Of a stretch of DNA of 64,000 bases, positions 13,016-21,283 are shown in pieces (the first letter of the stretch is position 1; every line of letters starts with the position of its first letter). The DNA comes from Marinobacterium rhizophilum DSM 18822 (lineage in GTDB: Bacteria > Pseudomonadota > Gammaproteobacteria > Pseudomonadales > Balneatricaceae), in NCBI RefSeq assembly GCF_000378045.1, contig NZ_KB899093.1:186001-250000 (forward strand), written 5' to 3'. A program made the translations under genes and the position numbers. The notes below the pieces were generated by a model. It saw only the letters and a program-made list of their open reading frames with translations. It ran no database searches and was not told the origin of the DNA.

Positions 13016-13543
13016 ATGAATATCAGACTATGGCTGTTGTGTGTCGTACTGCTGAGCGGCTGCAGTCAGGGCGACTGGCGCACCGCCAGCCGGGCATCGT
13101 CCGGGCTGGCGCCGGATGCAGCGACCACGCCCGAGGCCGTGCTGCAGGTGTACGGTGCAAGCGCCTATGGCTGGCGCGGCTGGTTCGCAATCCATACCTG
13201 GATCGCCGTCAAACCGGCCAATGCTGAGCGTTATACCCTGTATGAGGTGCTTGGCTGGCGGGAGCGCAGAGGATTACCGGTGCTGCGCATCGAAGCCGTA
13301 GACCGGCCGGATCGATACTGGTTCGGTGCCAGACCCGAGCTGCTGCTCGACAAGCGCGGGCCGGGTGTCGAAAAACTGATCCAGGCGGTGGACCGGGCCG
13401 CCAGGGATTATCCGTGGAAGCACGAGTACCGCCTGTTCCCGGGCCCCAACAGCAATACCTTTCCTGCCTGGGTGGCACAGAAGGTACCGGAACTCGGACT
13501 CGAACTGCCGTTCAGCGCCATCGGCAGCGGCTGGGCGGATTAA
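13016..13543 (+). CDS. DUF3750 lipoprotein
   Basis: 175 residues from ATG 13016, with GGAAGGA directly upstream; the longer frame from 12932 lacks a ribosome site. The N-terminus is a lipoprotein signal ending in the lipobox LLSGC, so the mature protein begins with Cys and is membrane-anchored in the periplasm. The body matches DUF3750 by its conserved features: an FAIHTWIAVK segment, a central PDRYWFG, and the NSNTFPAWV motif near the end. The family resembles NlpC/P60-like folds, but activity is unproven. It is a stand-alone gene. Confidence 0.8.
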   Translation: MNIRLWLLCVVLLSGCSQGDWRTASRASSGLAPDAATTPEAVLQVYGASAYGWRGWFAIHTWIAVKPANAERYTLYEVLGWRERRGLPVLRIEAVDRPDRYWFGARPELLLDKRGPGVEKLIQAVDRAARDYPWKHEYRLFPGPNSNTFPAWVAQKVPELGLELPFSAIGSGWAD

Positions 13544-13765
13544 GTTAGCCTAAGCGTGATACCGGCGGGTGGAGGAAGGCCATGAGACTCATGGGCACTT
13601 ATTCAAAGACGCGAGAAACAAGATATTACAGGCATTTACAGCCTGTCTCTGTTTGACAGCACCTTTAGTCGCACCTATACATAATCCTTACCAAGGATGG
13701 TGAATCGGGTCAGCTCTTTAATCAGATGCTTGGCCAAGTACTCGTAAGGATGCGGGGCTAACCCT

Positions 13766-14413
13766 ATGTATTTAATATCGAAAAGTCGATTTTTTCGGCA
13801 TAAACCCATTGCGCCAAAACTATACGTATTATTTTTATACGGCATTTCTTCAATCGCCTGGGGCGCTTCTTTCGACTGTGAGCGAAATCGCTGTGGTTTG
13901 AAGAATGATGGGTCTTATCCCTACCTGGTGCTGGGCTCCGTTAAAAAAGTAGCCAGTGATGCAGATGCCGATGCTGTTTTTGGTTGGGCAAAGGCAAATG
14001 GATACTGGACTGCTCTGCCCGATAACCAGGCGCAGTTCAGGCAGTCTATTCAGATGATGTCGGTTGAAATTCCCGGACAGGGCGGGGTTGAAGAAATCAC
14101 CCTTCTAATGGGCCGTGAAGACTACGACGCCATCGCGATCAAGGCTGGAGATCTGGTTCGTTATACACCCCATGAAATGAATCAATCCAGTCCTGCATTC
14201 GCGAAAGCTACAAATCGACCCTACTGGAATCTTTTTGGCTGTATTGCCGTACTCTGCCGAGCAGATGATGGAAAATGTTCTCAACGCTATTCGACAGGTA
14301 TCTTTGGCGTCGTTGATGGAATTGCATTGAGTTCACACGGCGATACGTCTGAAGACGTTACCAAGCGCATCGATCCCATCACCTATTTACCCGTTCAATC
14401 AAGGAATGATTGA
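13766..14413 (+). CDS. Secreted hypothetical protein upstream of the YD/RHS gene
   Basis: 215 residues with an N-terminal hydrophobic signal (about residues 18-33, ending SIAWGA). After cleavage the protein has Cys pairs near the N-terminus (CERNRC) and in the second half (CIAVLC, CSQR). It is AT-richer than the surroundings. The gene ends 50 bases before the YD/RHS gene on the same strand, so co-expression is likely. I do not recognise the family. By position it may be an accessory or partner for the YD protein. No catalytic motif was seen. Confidence 0.65.
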   Translation: MYLISKSRFFRHKPIAPKLYVLFLYGISSIAWGASFDCERNRCGLKNDGSYPYLVLGSVKKVASDADADAVFGWAKANGYWTALPDNQAQFRQSIQMMSVEIPGQGGVEEITLLMGREDYDAIAIKAGDLVRYTPHEMNQSSPAFAKATNRPYWNLFGCIAVLCRADDGKCSQRYSTGIFGVVDGIALSSHGDTSEDVTKRIDPITYLPVQSRND

Positions 14414-14463
14414 ACGCTTAATAAAAATCTAGCGGAGACTCTATTCGCATTGGAGATATTTCC

Positions 14464-17400
14464 ATGGACTGGAATAATTTCAGGTTACTGGTGGGGGTGA
14501 TTTTATTAGTTCTCTCGCACATCGCTGGCGCGAGTAATGAGGACAGTAGTCGTCAATCCAATATTTCGTCGCGTTACGGTGTATTTCAAGAGCCCCTGGT
14601 TGCGTTTACCCCCTTTTCCCGGGCCCAGCATTCGACACTGGATGCGGCCGCTATGGCTTATTCGTCCATGGGCAGTCCGTCCAGTGTAGGGCCCGTGTCA
14701 GATTACCTGGACCGTTTTACGGATTCACCCTGGCGCGCTTCGTTACTGCTCAATATGGCATTAGCCCGGGCGCAGGCCGGCTACTTTTCTGATGCATTAC
14801 AGCTGTTGGAGCAAGCCCATATTGCGGCTGAGGCCGCTGACAATCCGGCAGAAAGAGCCGTAGCTGCCCGGATATTGGGGGAGTTGCTTGAATTGCACAC
14901 CCGCTTTGGCCATCGCGATGCCGTCGAGGCACTGCTTAAAAGGGTAAGTACCGGACCAGAGGCCGGCTCGATATCGGAAAGTCTAACGTTCGCCCGTGCC
15001 GGGCTCTGGCAAATGAAGAATGAGCCCGAGAAGGCATTAAGGTGCGGGATTGCTGCTCTGGATGCCTTGCTGGCGATAACGGTGCCAGCAAGGCAGCGTG
15101 AATCTGTTCTCGAAAACAGTGAAGCCGGTGCGGATGGGACGACTTTAGCGCAACTGGACGCGCTTGCCGACGGTTTGGGGTTAGATGCTTTGGCCATTCG
15201 ACGTGGCATGGGGCAGCCTGTACCGGTGCCTTCGCTCGTGCACTGGCGCGTGGGGCATTACGCCACCATCCTGAGCGAGGACGATGGTGTCTACCGGGTC
15301 AGGGATCCCGCGTATGGCCAGGATTTATGGATCTCGCAGGATGCACTGGATGCCGAGTCGAGCGGATATTTTCTGGCACTGAACGATGTGAATGTGCCCT
15401 GGCAACGCCTGAAGGATACCGATGCCGCCCAGGTGGTCGGTAGTGGCTACACCTCAAGCAGCGATCAGAGCAGCACGTCGGACGATGATTTAACCGAGTG
15501 TGACGATCCCTGTACCGAACACAAAGGTATGCCGCGCTATCGCGTGCATTCCATGCTGGTCAGTCTGAATATCCGCGATACCCCGATCGGGTACACGCCT
15601 CCCGTCGGGCCTTCTGTGCCGGTAACCCTCACCTATAGCCAGCGTGAGATCAATCAACCCACAACGTTCACCTTTTCCAACCTGGGACAGAAGTGGACCT
15701 TCAACTGGTTATCCTACGTGCAGGACGATCCCCAGCAGGTGGGTAACCGGGTGATGGTCTATCTTCCCGGGGGCGGGAGTCGCAATTATGGGGGTTACAA
15801 CGTCGGCACCGGAGCCTTCTTGCCGGAACAGCGCACCGGTGCCCAGCTTGTTCGAGTGTCATCCTTGCCTCTGCGTTACGAACGGCGCATGCCGGATGGC
15901 AGACGGTTCGTTTACGCGCAGCCGGACAATAGCGCCTATTATCCGCGTCGCGTAATGCTGAGCGCAGTTATTGATCCTGCGGGTAATGCCGTGACATTGC
16001 AGTATGACGCTCAGCAGCGCCTGCTCAGTGTGACGGACGCCCTGGACCAAATTACGGTATTCACCTATGACAATCCGTCCAATCCGCTGCTTATTACCGG
16101 TGTTACCGACCCTTTCGGACGAAACGCAATCATCGGTTATGACGTCAGTGGTCGTCTGAACAGTATCACGGATGCCATTGGCATGACGTCGACTTTTGGC
16201 TACGACAGCGGCACCTTCGTCAACACCATGAATACCCCATACGGCACCACCTCGTTCAGCTATGGCGAGAGCGGGACGACCCGCTGGCTTGAGGTTACCG
16301 ATCCCCAGGGCGAGCGGGAGCGGGTTGAGTTCGCGCATGGTGCATCCGGGATTCCGTTCAGTGACTCACCGATACCCGCGGGCATGAACCTGTTCAACCG
16401 CTACATCAACGGCCGCAATACCTTTTACTGGGATAAGGAGGCCATGCGACGCGCGGCGGGGGATTATACCCAAGCGCGCATTCGCCACTGGTATCACCTG
16501 CGGACCAACACGTCTTTTACGGCCAGCGTGTTAGAGAGCGTCAAAAATCCGCTGGAAAGACGCGTCTGGTTCAACTATCCGGGCCAAAGCTGGGCGGGTG
16601 CAGAAGGCACCCTGGATAAACCCTCGCTCGTTGGCCGGGTGCTACCGGACGGTACCACCCAGTTGAGCAGAAAAACCTATAACGTATTCGGTAACGTGAC
16701 CAGCACCATCGATCCTCAAGGTCGTGAACTGGTATTCGATTATGCGGACAACCAGGTCGATCTGGTTCGCATTCAACGCAGGAGTGCGGCCGGTTACGAT
16801 GTGCTGGCGCAGTTCACCTATAACGACCAGCATCGCCCGTTAACCTATACGGACTCCGCCGGCCAAGTGACCACCTATGATTACAATGCGGCGGGTCAAC
16901 TGACCCGGGTGATCAACCCGCTGGGGCATGTTTCTCGATACGAATACGATGATCAGGGTTACCTGACCGGTATTATCGACCCGAATGGCAACAGGGTTGC
17001 CACATACAGTTACGATGCTTTTGGCCGTATCGACAGCGAAACAAACGCCGCGGGTTACAGGCTGGAATATCGCTATGACGCCCTCGATCGGCGTATCCAG
17101 ACCCGTTACCCGGATGGCACCAGTGAGTTTGTTGACTGGGACCGCCTCGACGTGGCCGCACATGAAGACCGTTATGGCAATGTGACGCAATTCGCACATG
17201 ACGCCGTACGGAATTTGCTAAGTGAAATTGATCCGTCCGGCCATCAGATGGAATACGACTACTTTGCCAACGGAGCGCTGAAAAGCCGGGTTGATGGCCT
17301 CGGCAATACCTCCTCTTTGGAGCGGGATATTCAGCGCCGCGTCGTCCGTACGATTCGTGCCGACGGCAGTGACAGTCGCAGGCGTTTTGATTCCAGTGGA

Positions 17401-19458
17401 CGCCCAATACGGGAAACCGATGCATTGGGCGCAGATACCGAGTTTGGATATGCCACGGACGATCGTCTGGCAAGCGTTACCGATCCCAACGGCAATTCGA
17501 CGCTGTATCGCCATGACGCCTACACGGGCCAGCTTGTCGAGCGAGACAGTCCGGATAGCGGCGTGACGACCTACCGTTACGACAGTGCCGGTAATCTTAC
17601 CGGCCAGACTGATGCGAATGGCCAGGCAACCACCTATGAGTATGATGCACTTAACCGCGTGATCCGCACTGTCTACGCCGACGGGCAGGTCGTGGAGTAT
17701 CTCTACGACGCTGCGCCCAATGGGATGGGGCGCCTGGCCGAGGTCCGGGATGCAACTGGGCGCACCGTTCTGGCTTATGACGTTGCGGGAAATCCTGTCA
17801 GCCGTACCCAGACGTCGCCGGATGGCGTCGAGCTGAAAACCCAGTACGCCTACAACGACGCCAACCAGTTGGCCCGTGTGATCTATCCTTCGGGGGCGAT
17901 TGTTGACTACAGCTATGCGCAAAATCGGCTGACAGCCATAGCTGCAAATGGTCAGGTGGTGCTGGATGACATTCACTATGCCGCCTTTGGCGCTGTGACT
18001 GGCTGGAACTGGGGTAACGGACAACCCAGCAGTCGGACCTACGATGCGAATGGCCGGCTCGACAGTTTCAACATTGCTGCTGAAAATCGGCAACTGAGCT
18101 ACGACAAGGTTGGCAATATCGTCGCCATCAACGGAGGGAGCCTTCAGCGCAACTTTGCCTATGATGCCAAGGGGCGTCTGAACGCGGCGATGTCTGCCGA
18201 TTGGGATCTTGGCTACACCTATGATCCCAATGGCAACCGTACTCACGAAAGCAGTGACGGGGTTTCGCGATATTACGCGGTCGATCCTGGAAGCAACCGG
18301 CTTTTGACAGCTGAGGATGTTGCCTTCATCTACGACGGTAATGGCAATACCCTGACCGACGGTCGTCATAGCTACCAATACGATGCGCGAAATCGACTGG
18401 CCACCGTGGATGATGGCTTTACCGGTGATTACCAGTACAACGCCTCCGGACAGCGCGTCTACAAGATGGGTCACCAGTCTTACCGATTAACCGCCGATCT
18501 CAATGGTGATGGTGAGGTCACCTCAGCGGACCTGCACGAATTAAAGCACTTTATTCGCAATGGGCAGTCGCCGTTGCAGGCTGACCTGAATCAGGATGGC
18601 AATGTTGATATGCATGACAATGCCTGCATTGCTACCCAGATCAGCGATGAAAAGGACGACCCAGGCCTGCCGCGAGGCTGCCGCCTCGGCGAATGGATAG
18701 ATGTTACGATTGAAAGTCGTTTTGTCTATGCCGGCCCACAGTTGCTGGGCGAGTATGACATCGACGGCCGTATCAGGCAGGAAATCGTCTGGATGGGCAC
18801 CATGCCCGTCGCTGTGCTGCAAGACGGCGAGATCTATCAAATACACAGTAATCAGATTGATGCGCCTGAAGCGATAACGGATGCCTGGGGTACGGTCGTC
18901 TGGCGCTGGACGCCGAAACCGTTTGGTGACAGCCTGGCCGATGAAGACCCGGATGGAAACGGTCAACGGTTTACGTTCAATCTGCGCTTTCCCGGGCAGT
19001 ATTTTGATGCCGAGACAGGGTTGAACTACAACTACTATCGGGACTATGACCCGGCAACGGGACGGTACATCGAAAGTGATCCGATAGGGTTAGCGGGTGG
19101 TCTGAATACTTACGTGTATGTAGGTGGAAACCCTCCAAGTTATGTTGATCCACTAGGGCTTCTTTGTGGGAAGGGATCTCATCTAATATTTGATTTTCGA
19201 CGTGGATTTAGCTGTGAGCTAGATCCACCACCATCTAATCCTGATGCGAAGTGCATCACCGTTGAGTGTGTAATGAGAAATGGGGCTGGTCGTGATACTA
19301 GAAAAAATCCAATATGTCCAGTCGTATGCAGAGTCGCCGCTATGCCTTGTCAAATGCTTGGCAGTATCATTTCTCCATCAGGTGCAGCGTGTAGAGGAGC
19401 TGTTGGTGTTGTGTGTAGCGCAGTGTGCGATGAAGACGAAAAAGAAGAGTGCAAATGA
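14464..19458 (+). CDS. Secreted YD/RHS-repeat protein with C39-like, dockerin-like and variable tip regions
   Basis: 1664 residues with a Sec-type signal (about 6-24). Residues ~55-185 are helical, TPR-like. Next comes a C39-peptidase-like domain with C194 (RCGIAALDALL), H265 (GHYATI) and D281 (VRDPAYG). From ~350 to ~1560 there are many YD repeats (for example YDALNRV, YDSAGNLTG). Two EF-hand/dockerin-type loops interrupt them: DLNGDGEV from D1345 and DLNQDGNV from D1374, likely calcium sites. The RHS core ends near YIESDPIGL and YVDPLGLL. The last ~100 residues have 11 cysteines and lower GC, typical of exchangeable polymorphic-toxin tips. Toxin activity is inferred, not shown; no PAAR or VgrG gene is nearby. 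Confidence 0.9.
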   Translation: MDWNNFRLLVGVILLVLSHIAGASNEDSSRQSNISSRYGVFQEPLVAFTPFSRAQHSTLDAAAMAYSSMGSPSSVGPVSDYLDRFTDSPWRASLLLNMALARAQAGYFSDALQLLEQAHIAAEAADNPAERAVAARILGELLELHTRFGHRDAVEALLKRVSTGPEAGSISESLTFARAGLWQMKNEPEKALRCGIAALDALLAITVPARQRESVLENSEAGADGTTLAQLDALADGLGLDALAIRRGMGQPVPVPSLVHWRVGHYATILSEDDGVYRVRDPAYGQDLWISQDALDAESSGYFLALNDVNVPWQRLKDTDAAQVVGSGYTSSSDQSSTSDDDLTECDDPCTEHKGMPRYRVHSMLVSLNIRDTPIGYTPPVGPSVPVTLTYSQREINQPTTFTFSNLGQKWTFNWLSYVQDDPQQVGNRVMVYLPGGGSRNYGGYNVGTGAFLPEQRTGAQLVRVSSLPLRYERRMPDGRRFVYAQPDNSAYYPRRVMLSAVIDPAGNAVTLQYDAQQRLLSVTDALDQITVFTYDNPSNPLLITGVTDPFGRNAIIGYDVSGRLNSITDAIGMTSTFGYDSGTFVNTMNTPYGTTSFSYGESGTTRWLEVTDPQGERERVEFAHGASGIPFSDSPIPAGMNLFNRYINGRNTFYWDKEAMRRAAGDYTQARIRHWYHLRTNTSFTASVLESVKNPLERRVWFNYPGQSWAGAEGTLDKPSLVGRVLPDGTTQLSRKTYNVFGNVTSTIDPQGRELVFDYADNQVDLVRIQRRSAAGYDVLAQFTYNDQHRPLTYTDSAGQVTTYDYNAAGQLTRVINPLGHVSRYEYDDQGYLTGIIDPNGNRVATYSYDAFGRIDSETNAAGYRLEYRYDALDRRIQTRYPDGTSEFVDWDRLDVAAHEDRYGNVTQFAHDAVRNLLSEIDPSGHQMEYDYFANGALKSRVDGLGNTSSLERDIQRRVVRTIRADGSDSRRRFDSSGRPIRETDALGADTEFGYATDDRLASVTDPNGNSTLYRHDAYTGQLVERDSPDSGVTTYRYDSAGNLTGQTDANGQATTYEYDALNRVIRTVYADGQVVEYLYDAAPNGMGRLAEVRDATGRTVLAYDVAGNPVSRTQTSPDGVELKTQYAYNDANQLARVIYPSGAIVDYSYAQNRLTAIAANGQVVLDDIHYAAFGAVTGWNWGNGQPSSRTYDANGRLDSFNIAAENRQLSYDKVGNIVAINGGSLQRNFAYDAKGRLNAAMSADWDLGYTYDPNGNRTHESSDGVSRYYAVDPGSNRLLTAEDVAFIYDGNGNTLTDGRHSYQYDARNRLATVDDGFTGDYQYNASGQRVYKMGHQSYRLTADLNGDGEVTSADLHELKHFIRNGQSPLQADLNQDGNVDMHDNACIATQISDEKDDPGLPRGCRLGEWIDVTIESRFVYAGPQLLGEYDIDGRIRQEIVWMGTMPVAVLQDGEIYQIHSNQIDAPEAITDAWGTVVWRWTPKPFGDSLADEDPDGNGQRFTFNLRFPGQYFDAETGLNYNYYRDYDPATGRYIESDPIGLAGGLNTYVYVGGNPPSYVDPLGLLCGKGSHLIFDFRRGFSCELDPPPSNPDAKCITVECVMRNGAGRDTRKNPICPVVCRVAAMPCQMLGSIISPSGAACRGAVGVVCSAVCDEDEKEECK

Positions 19459-19730
19459 ATATGCCTAGTTGTCCAGAATGTTGTAATTCAATAAATATTT
19501 TTAAAATAGACTCGAATGGGGAGGTGCGATGTTCAAATTGTGGGATATCTCTGAAGGGAAAAGATTATCGTAGGAATAACATGATAGCGGGTCTGATTTT
19601 CTTTTTTATTATTACTCCGGTAGTAACGGCTTTACTTTGGGGGTCGGTATGGCTTTGGCCAATAGATTTTTTTATTGGTTTTTTATTGTATTGGTTTGTT
19701 ATGAGTAAAACGTGTTTTGAAAGAAATTAA
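19455..19730 (+). CDS. Zinc-ribbon membrane protein, candidate immunity or partner protein
   Basis: 91 residues. Its ATG overlaps the stop of the YD/RHS gene (ATGA), so translation is coupled. The N-terminus has a zinc ribbon (CPECC ... CSNC). Two membrane helices follow (about 48-68 and 72-86). The DNA is clearly AT-rich compared with neighbours, like the 3' end of the YD gene, which suggests the pair arrived together. Position and composition fit an immunity protein for the variable tip, but no immunity family is recognised; a general small membrane protein is the alternative. Confidence 0.7.
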   Translation: MNMPSCPECCNSINIFKIDSNGEVRCSNCGISLKGKDYRRNNMIAGLIFFFIITPVVTALLWGSVWLWPIDFFIGFLLYWFVMSKTCFERN

Positions 19731-19978
19731 TAAATTTATATTTTTATCAGTAGTGTGTCGTACACCGTTCCACTTCTATATTCCACGCTTCGTCAGCAGG
19801 ACGTACATGCGGAATCAGCCCGTACAGTTTTGGTCCCTGAAAAGACATTAAATTCACTGAATTTTAGCTGGGGTCTCTAGGAAACTATGCATAAGTCCCC
19901 TGGTTTTTTGGAGTTACAATGATTTTTCCGCCAATGGCGACGCATCCCTGCGTCAGCTATTAGTGCGTCGAGTTAGTT

Positions 19979-21283
19979 TCACTTCCTGCGCTTCGAACCC
20001 GAGAGCAGGGACGGGCGCACGGCGCGGGTATTGGTATCGTCGGCTTCGGGCATTGGGGCCGGGGCGGGCTTGACCGGGGCTGGTTTCAGCTTGGCGCGCA
20101 GGCGCGAATTTTTCGAGGCGCGCACACTGTGGTTGTCGTCGGCGGCATTGCTGCCCTGGTAAGGCACGGGCTTGATCGACAGTGGGCGGCCAATCAGTGC
20201 TTCGATGGCCACCAGGTAGCGCTTTTCATCCGGCGACACCAGCGATATGGCCTGACCCTTGCCGCCGGCACGGCCGGTGCGGCCAATACGGTGAACATAG
20301 GCTTCCGGTACGTTGGGCAGGTCGTAGTTCACCACGCGGGGCAGGGCGTCGATATCCAGCCCGCGGGCAGCCACGTCGGTGGCTACCAGAATGCGGATCT
20401 TGCCCTGGCTGAAGCCGGCCAGCACGCTGACCCGTTCACGCTGGGGTTTGTCGCCATGCAGTGCGCGGGCATCAATACCCTCGGACTGCAGGTAGTCTGC
20501 CACCATATCGGCGCGCTTCTTGGTGCGGGTGAAGACCAGCGCCTGTGCCCATTGCCCACCCTGAATCAGGTAGCTGAGCACATCGCACTTGTCGCCCTGA
20601 TCCACGGCATAGGCAAACTGCAGCACGGTTTTGGCGGTGGAGTTGCGTTTCGTGACGCGCACCCAGGTGGGCTTTTGCAGAAACTCGGGCACCAGCTGCT
20701 CGATGGCCTCGGACAGGGTGGCTGAAAACAGCAGGGTCTGGCAGCGGCGGGGCATTTTCTTGCGCAGCTGGCGAATGTCGGCAATAAAACCAAGATCCAG
20801 CATGCGGTCGGCTTCGTCCAATACCAGCAGTTGAAGCTGGCGCAGATCGAAAACGCCCTGGCTGAGCAGGTCGAGCAGGCGGCCTGGTGTGGCGACCAGT
20901 ATGTCGGCACCGCGTTTTAGCTGGCCGATCTGTCCTTCGATACGGTTGCCGCCAAACAATGCGATCGTACGCAGGCTCAGATAGCGGCCATAGGCATCCA
21001 GGCTCTGGGTCACCTGCAGCGCCAGTTCCCGTGTGGGCACCAGCACCAGCGCGCGTACCGGGCGAATGTCTTCAACGGATGGCTCTGCCCACAGGTTTTG
21101 AAGAATGGGCAGGGCAAATGCAGCGGTCTTGCCGGTGCCGGTCTGGGCTTCGGCCACGAGGTCGGCGCCGTTCAGAATGGCGGGAATGGCCTGGGTCTGC
21201 ACGGCGGTTGGGCTGCGGTAGTCGAGCTCCGCCAGAGCCTGCTGCAGAGGCTCAATAAGGCCGAGGGCGTTGAACGTACTCAT
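19979..21283 (-). CDS. rhlE: DEAD-box RNA helicase RhlE
   Basis: 434 residues from ATG 21283, with AGGT upstream; the longer frame to 21325 is untranslated leader. All helicase motifs are present: Q motif (FNALGL...PTAVQTQAIP), Walker A AQTGTGKT, PTREL, TPGRLLD, DEAD (VLDEADRML), SAT, ARGLDI and HRIGRTGRAG. The C-terminus is a basic, Pro/Ala/Lys-rich tail (KPAPVKPAPAP, then SKRRK), typical of RhlE-type helicases, which remodel RNA in ribosome assembly and mRNA decay. It is a single-gene unit; the 248-base gap before it is AT-rich and holds no gene I can see. Confidence 0.9.
   Translation of the reverse strand: MSTFNALGLIEPLQQALAELDYRSPTAVQTQAIPAILNGADLVAEAQTGTGKTAAFALPILQNLWAEPSVEDIRPVRALVLVPTRELALQVTQSLDAYGRYLSLRTIALFGGNRIEGQIGQLKRGADILVATPGRLLDLLSQGVFDLRQLQLLVLDEADRMLDLGFIADIRQLRKKMPRRCQTLLFSATLSEAIEQLVPEFLQKPTWVRVTKRNSTAKTVLQFAYAVDQGDKCDVLSYLIQGGQWAQALVFTRTKKRADMVADYLQSEGIDARALHGDKPQRERVSVLAGFSQGKIRILVATDVAARGLDIDALPRVVNYDLPNVPEAYVHRIGRTGRAGGKGQAISLVSPDEKRYLVAIEALIGRPLSIKPVPYQGSNAADDNHSVRASKNSRLRAKLKPAPVKPAPAPMPEADDTNTRAVRPSLLSGSKRRK

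Follow-up and report, generated by a model that had tools for sequence, protein, structure and literature searches.

WapA-type Rhs toxins of Gram-positive bacteria, for example the WapA of Streptococcus suis, are Sec-exported YD proteins with a variable toxic tip. To our knowledge, the deployment of Rhs toxins in Gram-negative bacteria without a type VI secretion system (T6SS) is poorly described. The subject here is a candidate Rhs/YD polymorphic toxin of 1664 residues, recognized by Pfam and NCBIfam matches and encoded at 14464..19458 in a 64,000-nucleotide stretch of Marinobacterium rhizophilum DSM 18822 (contig NZ_KB899093.1, positions 186,001 to 250,000; to be referred to as the window). 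All positions are those of the window, and the genes and domains described lie on its forward strand. Together with a small overlapping gene, the candidate immunity gene (to be referred to as the guard), it very probably forms a toxin/immunity module, judging from the sequence. The locus as a whole is likely a T6SS-independent Rhs polymorphic toxin module. Like WapA, the window protein is a predicted exported YD protein with a variable tip. On the other hand, its host is Gram-negative and has an outer membrane to be crossed, the protein contains a peptidase C39 domain, and the guard is a putative membrane protein.

The T6SS-linked Rhs toxins share other features with this locus. Rhs1 of Photorhabdus laumondii has YD repeats and two DPxGL motifs before its variable tip, 17 residues apart compared to 18 in the window protein (PMC8636562; the papers cited here were available in part, and statements about them refer to those parts). 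The main/orphan layout of Salmonella rhs (PMC3967940) has its counterpart in displaced cassettes in relatives of the window. A downstream guard gene and a break in GC content at the tip are also common to these toxins (PMC8636562, PMC3967940) and the window. There are several differences, however. The N-terminus of the window protein is a Sec signal followed by a TPR/C39 region instead of a PAAR/transmembrane (TM) region, no PAAR or VipB was found (see below), and a dockerin pair and an upstream exported partner are present. An aspartate is implicated in the N-terminal cut of Rhs1 (PMC8636562), whereas a cysteine protease domain sits at this place in the window protein. In the available part of PMC8765631, the N-terminal cleavage of a T6SS Rhs effector is said to proceed by an as yet unknown mechanism.

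The layout of signal peptide, constant N-terminal domain, RHS array and variable C-terminus is that of polymorphic toxins of the Sec/type II secretion system (T2SS) route (PMC3482391). The proteases given for this route in the accessible text are caspase, HINT, MCF1-SHE, subtilisin and ZU5, not C39, and C39 is treated there as a toxin domain. The TANFOR toxins of Bacteroidetes are likewise a Gram-negative lineage of polymorphic toxins whose defining feature is a constant N-terminal domain, but the domain is a different one, a separation that is made by description only (PMC7073777). The C39 domain of the window protein resembles the proteases of AMS/PCAT transporters (LahT150, 6mpz, PMC6363468) in domain family, catalytic triad and a substrate-like spacing right behind the domain. 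In comparison, it follows a Sec signal and has no attached ABC transporter, and the residues at positions −7 (Ala/Gly, not Leu) and −1 (mostly Arg, Lys or Met) of the spacing are different. The literature search, with most subscription journals outside its coverage, found no paper joining peptidase C39 with the RHS repeat or the Rhs-associated core, except PMC3482391, in the available part of which C39 is a toxin domain. Dockerin was not joined to RHS/YD-repeat toxins among the matches listed, and the top matches held no Marinobacterium paper on Rhs or a polymorphic toxin. The toxin class is the known part; the N-terminal C39 chassis, the leader-like segment behind it and the partner gene are new.

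The window protein starts with a putative Sec signal peptide (MDWNNFRLLVGVILLVLSHIAGA, with the cut before Ser; residues 1–23, 14464..14532), read by eye with no predictor used. An Ala is located ahead of the supposed cut in six of six same-genus orthologues. The signal is followed by a TPR-like helical region (about residues 60–190, 14641..15033). The family profile matches TPR structures, 8 of the 40 family members selected contain TPR_2, and the Pfam TPR/HEAT matches of the window protein itself are weak. The peptidase C39 domain (PF03412, residues 194–307, 15043..15384; 29.6 bits, Pfam cut-off 22) contains C194, H265 and D281. Next is the leader-like segment (residues 313–327, ending G326-S327; 15400..15444), a candidate cis-cleavage site. 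The YD/Rhs region, a predicted shell (about residues 360–1566, 15541..19161), is recognized in Pfam and NCBIfam and kept in five orthologues. RHS_repeat PF05593 matches it with an E value of 7e-81 in 17 stretches, and all 14 PF05593 matches in the 5.36-Mb genome of this strain fall within the gene.

A type I dockerin pair (Dockerin_1 PF00404, residues 1344–1390, 18493..18633; 33.5 bits, Pfam cut-off 22.9) is inserted in the shell and kept in all six same-genus proteins. The pair looks like a lineage insert, because a dockerin-loop regular expression, applied to the 53 of 61 wider loci with a closed frame (see below), finds a pair only in L040–L042, which are the same genomes as G003–G005, and a single loop in L043. 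A cellulosome role of the pair was rejected, with no match to cohesin PF00963 in the genome of this strain. The shell ends with the Rhs-associated core (TIGR03696, residues 1486–1566, 18919..19161; E 1.3e-22 in NCBIfam). Two motifs were read from the sequence in it, DPIGL and, 18 residues on, DPLGL before the tip; D-x-x-G-L is found at the tip boundary in six of six same-genus proteins. By analogy with PMC8636562, this is a candidate site of aspartyl autocleavage. These assignments agree with an earlier note on this DNA, which had claimed a Sec signal, a C39-like domain with the same three residues, a long YD core and two dockerin-like motifs inserted in it. No tandem repeats were found at 13500–20000, and promoter- and terminator-like counts are those of shuffled sequence.

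The chassis, from the signal peptide through the core, is constant, and the tip is not. A search of 193 genomes gave 10 matches: this strain, five of the six other same-genus genomes, and four weaker ones from the order. In all five same-genus orthologues, identity to the window protein per 60 residues is 43–97% through residue 1560 and 9–20% beyond, with the break between residues 1501–1560 (77–87%) and 1561–1620 (10–17%). Two orthologues (G001 and G002) share one kind of tip (88%) and also one kind of guard; G003, G004 and G005 each have another tip.

The C39-YD chassis is widespread. When genome_contigs was scanned with the alignment of the chassis, by means of two peptide patterns, 61 loci were obtained. 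Their titles name Pseudomonadota, Verrucomicrobiota, Bacteroidota, Acidobacteria, Cyanobacteria and others, and many of the loci are from metagenome bins. The last 98 residues of 44 family members (6 same-genus proteins and 38 loci) fall into 41 clusters at BLASTP E ≤ 1e-3, compared to one cluster for a 98-residue core segment of the same proteins. These tip counts leave out L097, frames open at the 3′ end and frames of 1200 residues or fewer; L040–L042 were dropped as duplicates from the N-terminus, segment, tail and guard counts. The earlier note had named a tip as constant as the core in different genomes as speaking against a toxin role, and this is not what the five orthologues and the wider family display. 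In a Pfam scan of 42 tails (last 170 residues), Ntox16, Ntox44, Tlde1 and prokaryotic phospholipase A2 are matched by one tail each, the members not being named by the scan. A phospholipase A2-like HDxCY pattern was seen by eye at the gene ends of L049 and L084.

The tip and guard of the window are also present as a displaced cassette in G001. A 281-residue fragment there starts inside the dockerin pair and bears the tip (85% amino acid identity) and the guard (77%) of the window. It is located 4.3 kb behind the intact gene, whose tip differs, with a gene that is transposase-like by eye and other fragments in between. The dS values between the window and G001 are 0.41 for the tip, 0.69 for the guard and 1.14 for the core (dN/dS 0.17, 0.20 and 0.13, respectively). 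The lower values for tip and guard indicate that this cassette moved. For the core piece to which the displaced tip is fused, the dS to the window is 1.19, which places the break at the tip boundary, the tip being closer than the adjoining core. The same core piece has a dS of 0.82 to the intact gene of G001, which argues against a recent duplication of that gene. Tip and guard appear to be swapped jointly between related species, and the co-travel is seen in one case, this cassette. The tip swap and the displaced cassette bear out the sequence half of the polymorphic toxin/immunity layout that had been proposed earlier. A displaced fragment of core and tip, the tip being a different one, is present in G002 as well; no such orphan cassette was seen in the window. 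Further displaced tips with guard-like genes were observed behind the main gene in G001 (L024, reverse strand) and G002 (L025), beside genes that are transposase-like by eye.

G006 is the only same-genus genome that lacks the gene, and the module as a whole is missing there at the corresponding site. Homology to the window is lost at about 13541 and picks up again at about 19988, the two points being separated by 133 bp in G006, and the module therefore spans 13542..19987 (approximate ends, from BLASTN alignment ends). In G003, a lipoprotein-like gene flanking the module is partly duplicated (L113 431–958 and 5048–5332; 271 bp, 86%), and the duplication brackets an insert of about 4 kb with genes that are SDR-like and LysR-like by eye.

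The tip, the candidate toxin (98 residues, 1567–1664; 19162..19455), contains 11 Cys residues, compared to 5 in residues 25–1566. The tip has a GC content of 0.459, the guard gene 0.337 and the core 0.562, with GC3 values of 0.286, 0.297 and 0.621, respectively; a tip of about 100 residues with 11 Cys and lower GC, as described in the earlier note, is therefore correct. The tip has no toxin-family match in Pfam or NCBIfam, and its identity with a known toxin was rejected on this basis. Its 54 pattern matches in genome_contigs include no relatives, and the G001 cassette was likewise not returned, so that the scan did not cover that genome. Plasmids gave no match for the tip and none for the guard. 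Among 369 genomes of the class, with at most 13 candidates scored per genome, 7 match the tip, including this strain; the other six (E 0.001–0.01, two with internal stops) were taken as chance. For the guard, 57 genomes gave four matches, of which this strain and G001 are clear and two, at E 0.005–0.01, were taken as chance.

The guard gene (19455..19730, 91 residues) begins with an ATG at 19455 that overlaps the TGA of the toxin gene on the same strand (ATGA). A CxxC..CxxC pattern was seen by eye in its product, which also has two hydrophobic segments of a TM-like kind. The stop-codon overlap described earlier for a small zinc-ribbon membrane protein gene stands, but the start is most likely this ATG rather than GTG 19449. 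The zinc-ribbon Pfam matches are all under the cut-off (best E 0.006). Guards of the same genus, of five kinds, have a hydrophobic TM- or signal-like segment in six of six cases (Kyte-Doolittle scan). Such guards would fit tips that act on the envelope and a producer that guards itself while the toxin passes through its own periplasm, and disulfides in the 11-Cys tip would fit a periplasmic fold. With moderate confidence, the tip acts at the envelope. In the wider family, a close downstream open reading frame (ORF) follows 33 of 38 complete genes, compared to 164 of 267 for the remaining large ORFs of these loci (one-sided Fisher p 0.001). In four verrucomicrobial loci (L081, L085, L089 and L090), a second very long ORF (1084–2010 residues) lies less than 200 bases after the C39-YD gene.

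The residues C194, H265 and D281 are kept in six of six same-genus proteins. In an alignment of 56 N-termini (6 same-genus proteins and 50 usable loci), which left out frames with an open 5′ end or of 600 residues or fewer, the complete Cys/His/Asp triad is found in 42. Initially 50 rows were scored as C39-like; L069, L070, L071 and L079 are probably misaligned, and only the 42 full-triad rows were used. Among these members are Pseudomonadota, Verrucomicrobiota, one Bacteroidota and one deltaproteobacterial bin. PF03412 is matched by 30 of 40 full-triad members (the window plus 39 loci selected by their full triad), and a profile of these 40 matches the double-glycine protease 6mpz (E 8.7e-7) and ComA (about 1e-3), in addition to TPR proteins. 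In the verrucomicrobial relatives L069–L072, L079, L084 and L088, the same YD chassis seemingly carries other N-terminal domains instead of C39. The catalytic Cys is replaced by Ser in L065 and L066, from acidobacterial bins, and in L076, the sole cyanobacterial protein in the alignment.

The leader-like segment starts about six residues after the C39 domain as delimited by Pfam and reads L316-D320-A321-V324-G326-S327 in the window protein. Described C39 substrates have Leu(−12)-X3-Glu(−8)-Leu(−7), usually Val, Leu or Ile at −4, and then GG, GA or GS, with Glu−8 dispensable and Leu−7 important (PMC6363468). Among the 42 full-triad members, position −2 is Gly in all 42 (counted without gaps) and −4 is Val, Ile or Leu in all 42. 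Ala or Gly at −7 and Val, Ala, Leu or Ile at −12 are each found in 41, Trp, Tyr or Phe at −15 in 40, and Glu or Asp at −8 in 33. Positions were counted by alignment column and recounted without gaps, the counts at −12 and −15 shifting by one row (L048). Position −1 is Arg in 15, Lys in 12, Met in 6, Ser in 5 and Ala in 4. A GS or GA end, as in the window protein (G-S), is thus present in 9 of the 42. A strict regular expression with G[GAS] fits just 5, and a strict double-glycine reading of the segment was rejected. A looser expression fits 32, and shuffled segments give 0.14 of 42 on average. The comparison with shuffled segments establishes a non-random sequence and not a function, as a conserved helix end would give the same. 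Neither expression fits three of the six proteins of the genus, two owing to a Val at −8 and one to a Thr.

A function of this segment as a leader can be proposed tentatively. After export, the C39 domain would recognize it, cut in cis, and free the loaded YD shell from the N-terminal anchor; we consider this the less probable outcome. The small residue at −7 and the Arg, Lys or Met at −1 in 33 of the 42, atypical for C39 substrates, speak against it. L088 has no C39 domain, yet it contains a string that resembles the segment in part, with Glu at −8, Ile at −7 and −4 and Gly at −2, although with Asn at −12; this weighs against a strict tie of the segment to C39. Among the members with Ser for Cys, the segment is lost in L066, has Ala at −4 in L076 and is kept in L065, a suggestive decay in two of three members, too few to count.

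The C39 domain may instead be an inert peptide-binding surface anchor, like the inactive transglutaminase domains of other polymorphic toxins. These transglutaminases occupy the same position, between the signal peptide and the RHS repeats (PMC3482391), and such a role would also suit the residues at −1 and the Ser for Cys in L065, L066 and L076. However, according to the available part of that paper they have lost at least one residue of the triad, whereas the window protein and 42 of the 56 aligned N-termini retain the full set of C, H and D, and the profile matches the structure of a true double-glycine protease. The inert anchor thus retains appreciable weight, and the conserved residues tilt the balance toward a processing enzyme, which is the role we favor, with some reservation, for the C39 domain.

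Delivery by a T6SS is unlikely, since PAAR has no match in the genome of this strain or in the six other same-genus genomes (seven of seven) and VipB has none in the genome of this strain, the VgrG and Hcp models not having been searched. T6SS export was rejected on these grounds, and we hold with high confidence that the module is independent of this system. The earlier note had seen no T6SS gene in the window and had suggested Sec plus another route; the first statement extends to the genome for PAAR and VipB, and the second gains support from the same absences. Two type II secretin genes are above the cut-off in this genome, and export by Sec and the T2SS is possible.

A partner gene (P0002, 13766..14413; 215 residues) with a signal-peptide-like start and a conserved Cys is located directly upstream of the Rhs gene. 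It had been omitted from the earlier description, and it belongs to the module in the genus, as it is found at this position in all five same-genus orthologues (50–72%, tblastn). A profile of six partner sequences finds it in 5 of the 61 wider loci, L040–L042, L043 (Marinobacter halodurans) and L051 (Uliginosibacterium gangwonense); 10 of the 61 have less than 700 bases ahead of the gene, so that some cannot show a partner. The protein has no Pfam family at E ≤ 1 and one NCBIfam match at E 0.17. MafB also has an upstream secreted partner gene (MafA/MafB, PMC3482391), and by this analogy the partner may anchor the toxin or help its export.

Another explanation for the locus is a surface adhesin or matrix protein, a YD protein resembling a bacterial teneurin, with the tail as a recognition or antigenic tip and the small gene as a membrane assembly helper. 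The dockerin pair and the Sec signal would suit a surface role, and the tip of the window carries no known toxin domain. On the other hand, the same chassis carries tails that match Ntox16, Ntox44, Tlde1 and phospholipase A2, the tip and the downstream gene are displaced as a pair in the layout of Rhs toxin/immunity cassettes (PMC3967940), and the genome has no cohesin partner for the dockerin pair. We regard an adhesin as improbable. It is very improbable that the C39 domain is itself the toxin, in the manner of the Cpe1 effectors, which are C39-like and cleave GyrB and ParE: papain-like proteases related to ComA and LahT do occur with T6SS and contact-dependent inhibition (CDI) carriers, but most of these genes have an immunity gene next to them and ride such carriers (PMC12136450), whereas the C39 domain here is N-terminal, constant and beside the signal peptide, with the varying part and the guard at the C-terminus.

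In the T6SS-independent toxin module that we favor, Sec would export the protein, and the YD repeats would fold as a shell around the Cys-rich tip. The aspartyl site at D-P-L-G-L would cut the tip loose within the shell, and the N-terminal C39 domain would probably process the N-terminus. The tip would then act on the envelope of a competing relative, and the small overlapping membrane protein would shield the producer. Tip and guard would be a cassette that moves between species, and the remainder a constant chassis. Several observations weigh against this explanation. A protein of 1600 residues must still cross the outer membrane and reach its target. The tip has almost no relatives outside this locus and the G001 cassette, and known toxins therefore give no indication of its activity. 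In the wider family, a membrane guard is not the rule, with a TM-like segment in 17 of 33. The excess of downstream ORFs is modest, and some of the 33 are far too long for a guard, a few exceeding 1000 residues. The dS values come from few sites (21 differences at 67 sites for the tip), and the base composition of the tip could bias them.

The C39 protease domain, the candidate cleavage site, the constant partner and the exchange of cassettes make both the deployment of Rhs toxins without a T6SS and their N-terminal cleavage testable in a marine bacterium, and C39 followed by YD repeats is a marker for finding such weapons in several phyla. If the cut in cis behind the C39 domain is true, a transporter protease would have been turned into an in-built release switch of a shell-type toxin. 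The locus would then represent a widespread, unnamed, T6SS-free class of polymorphic toxins, arranged as Sec signal, TPR region, C39 domain, YD shell and tip, with its own protease and leader.

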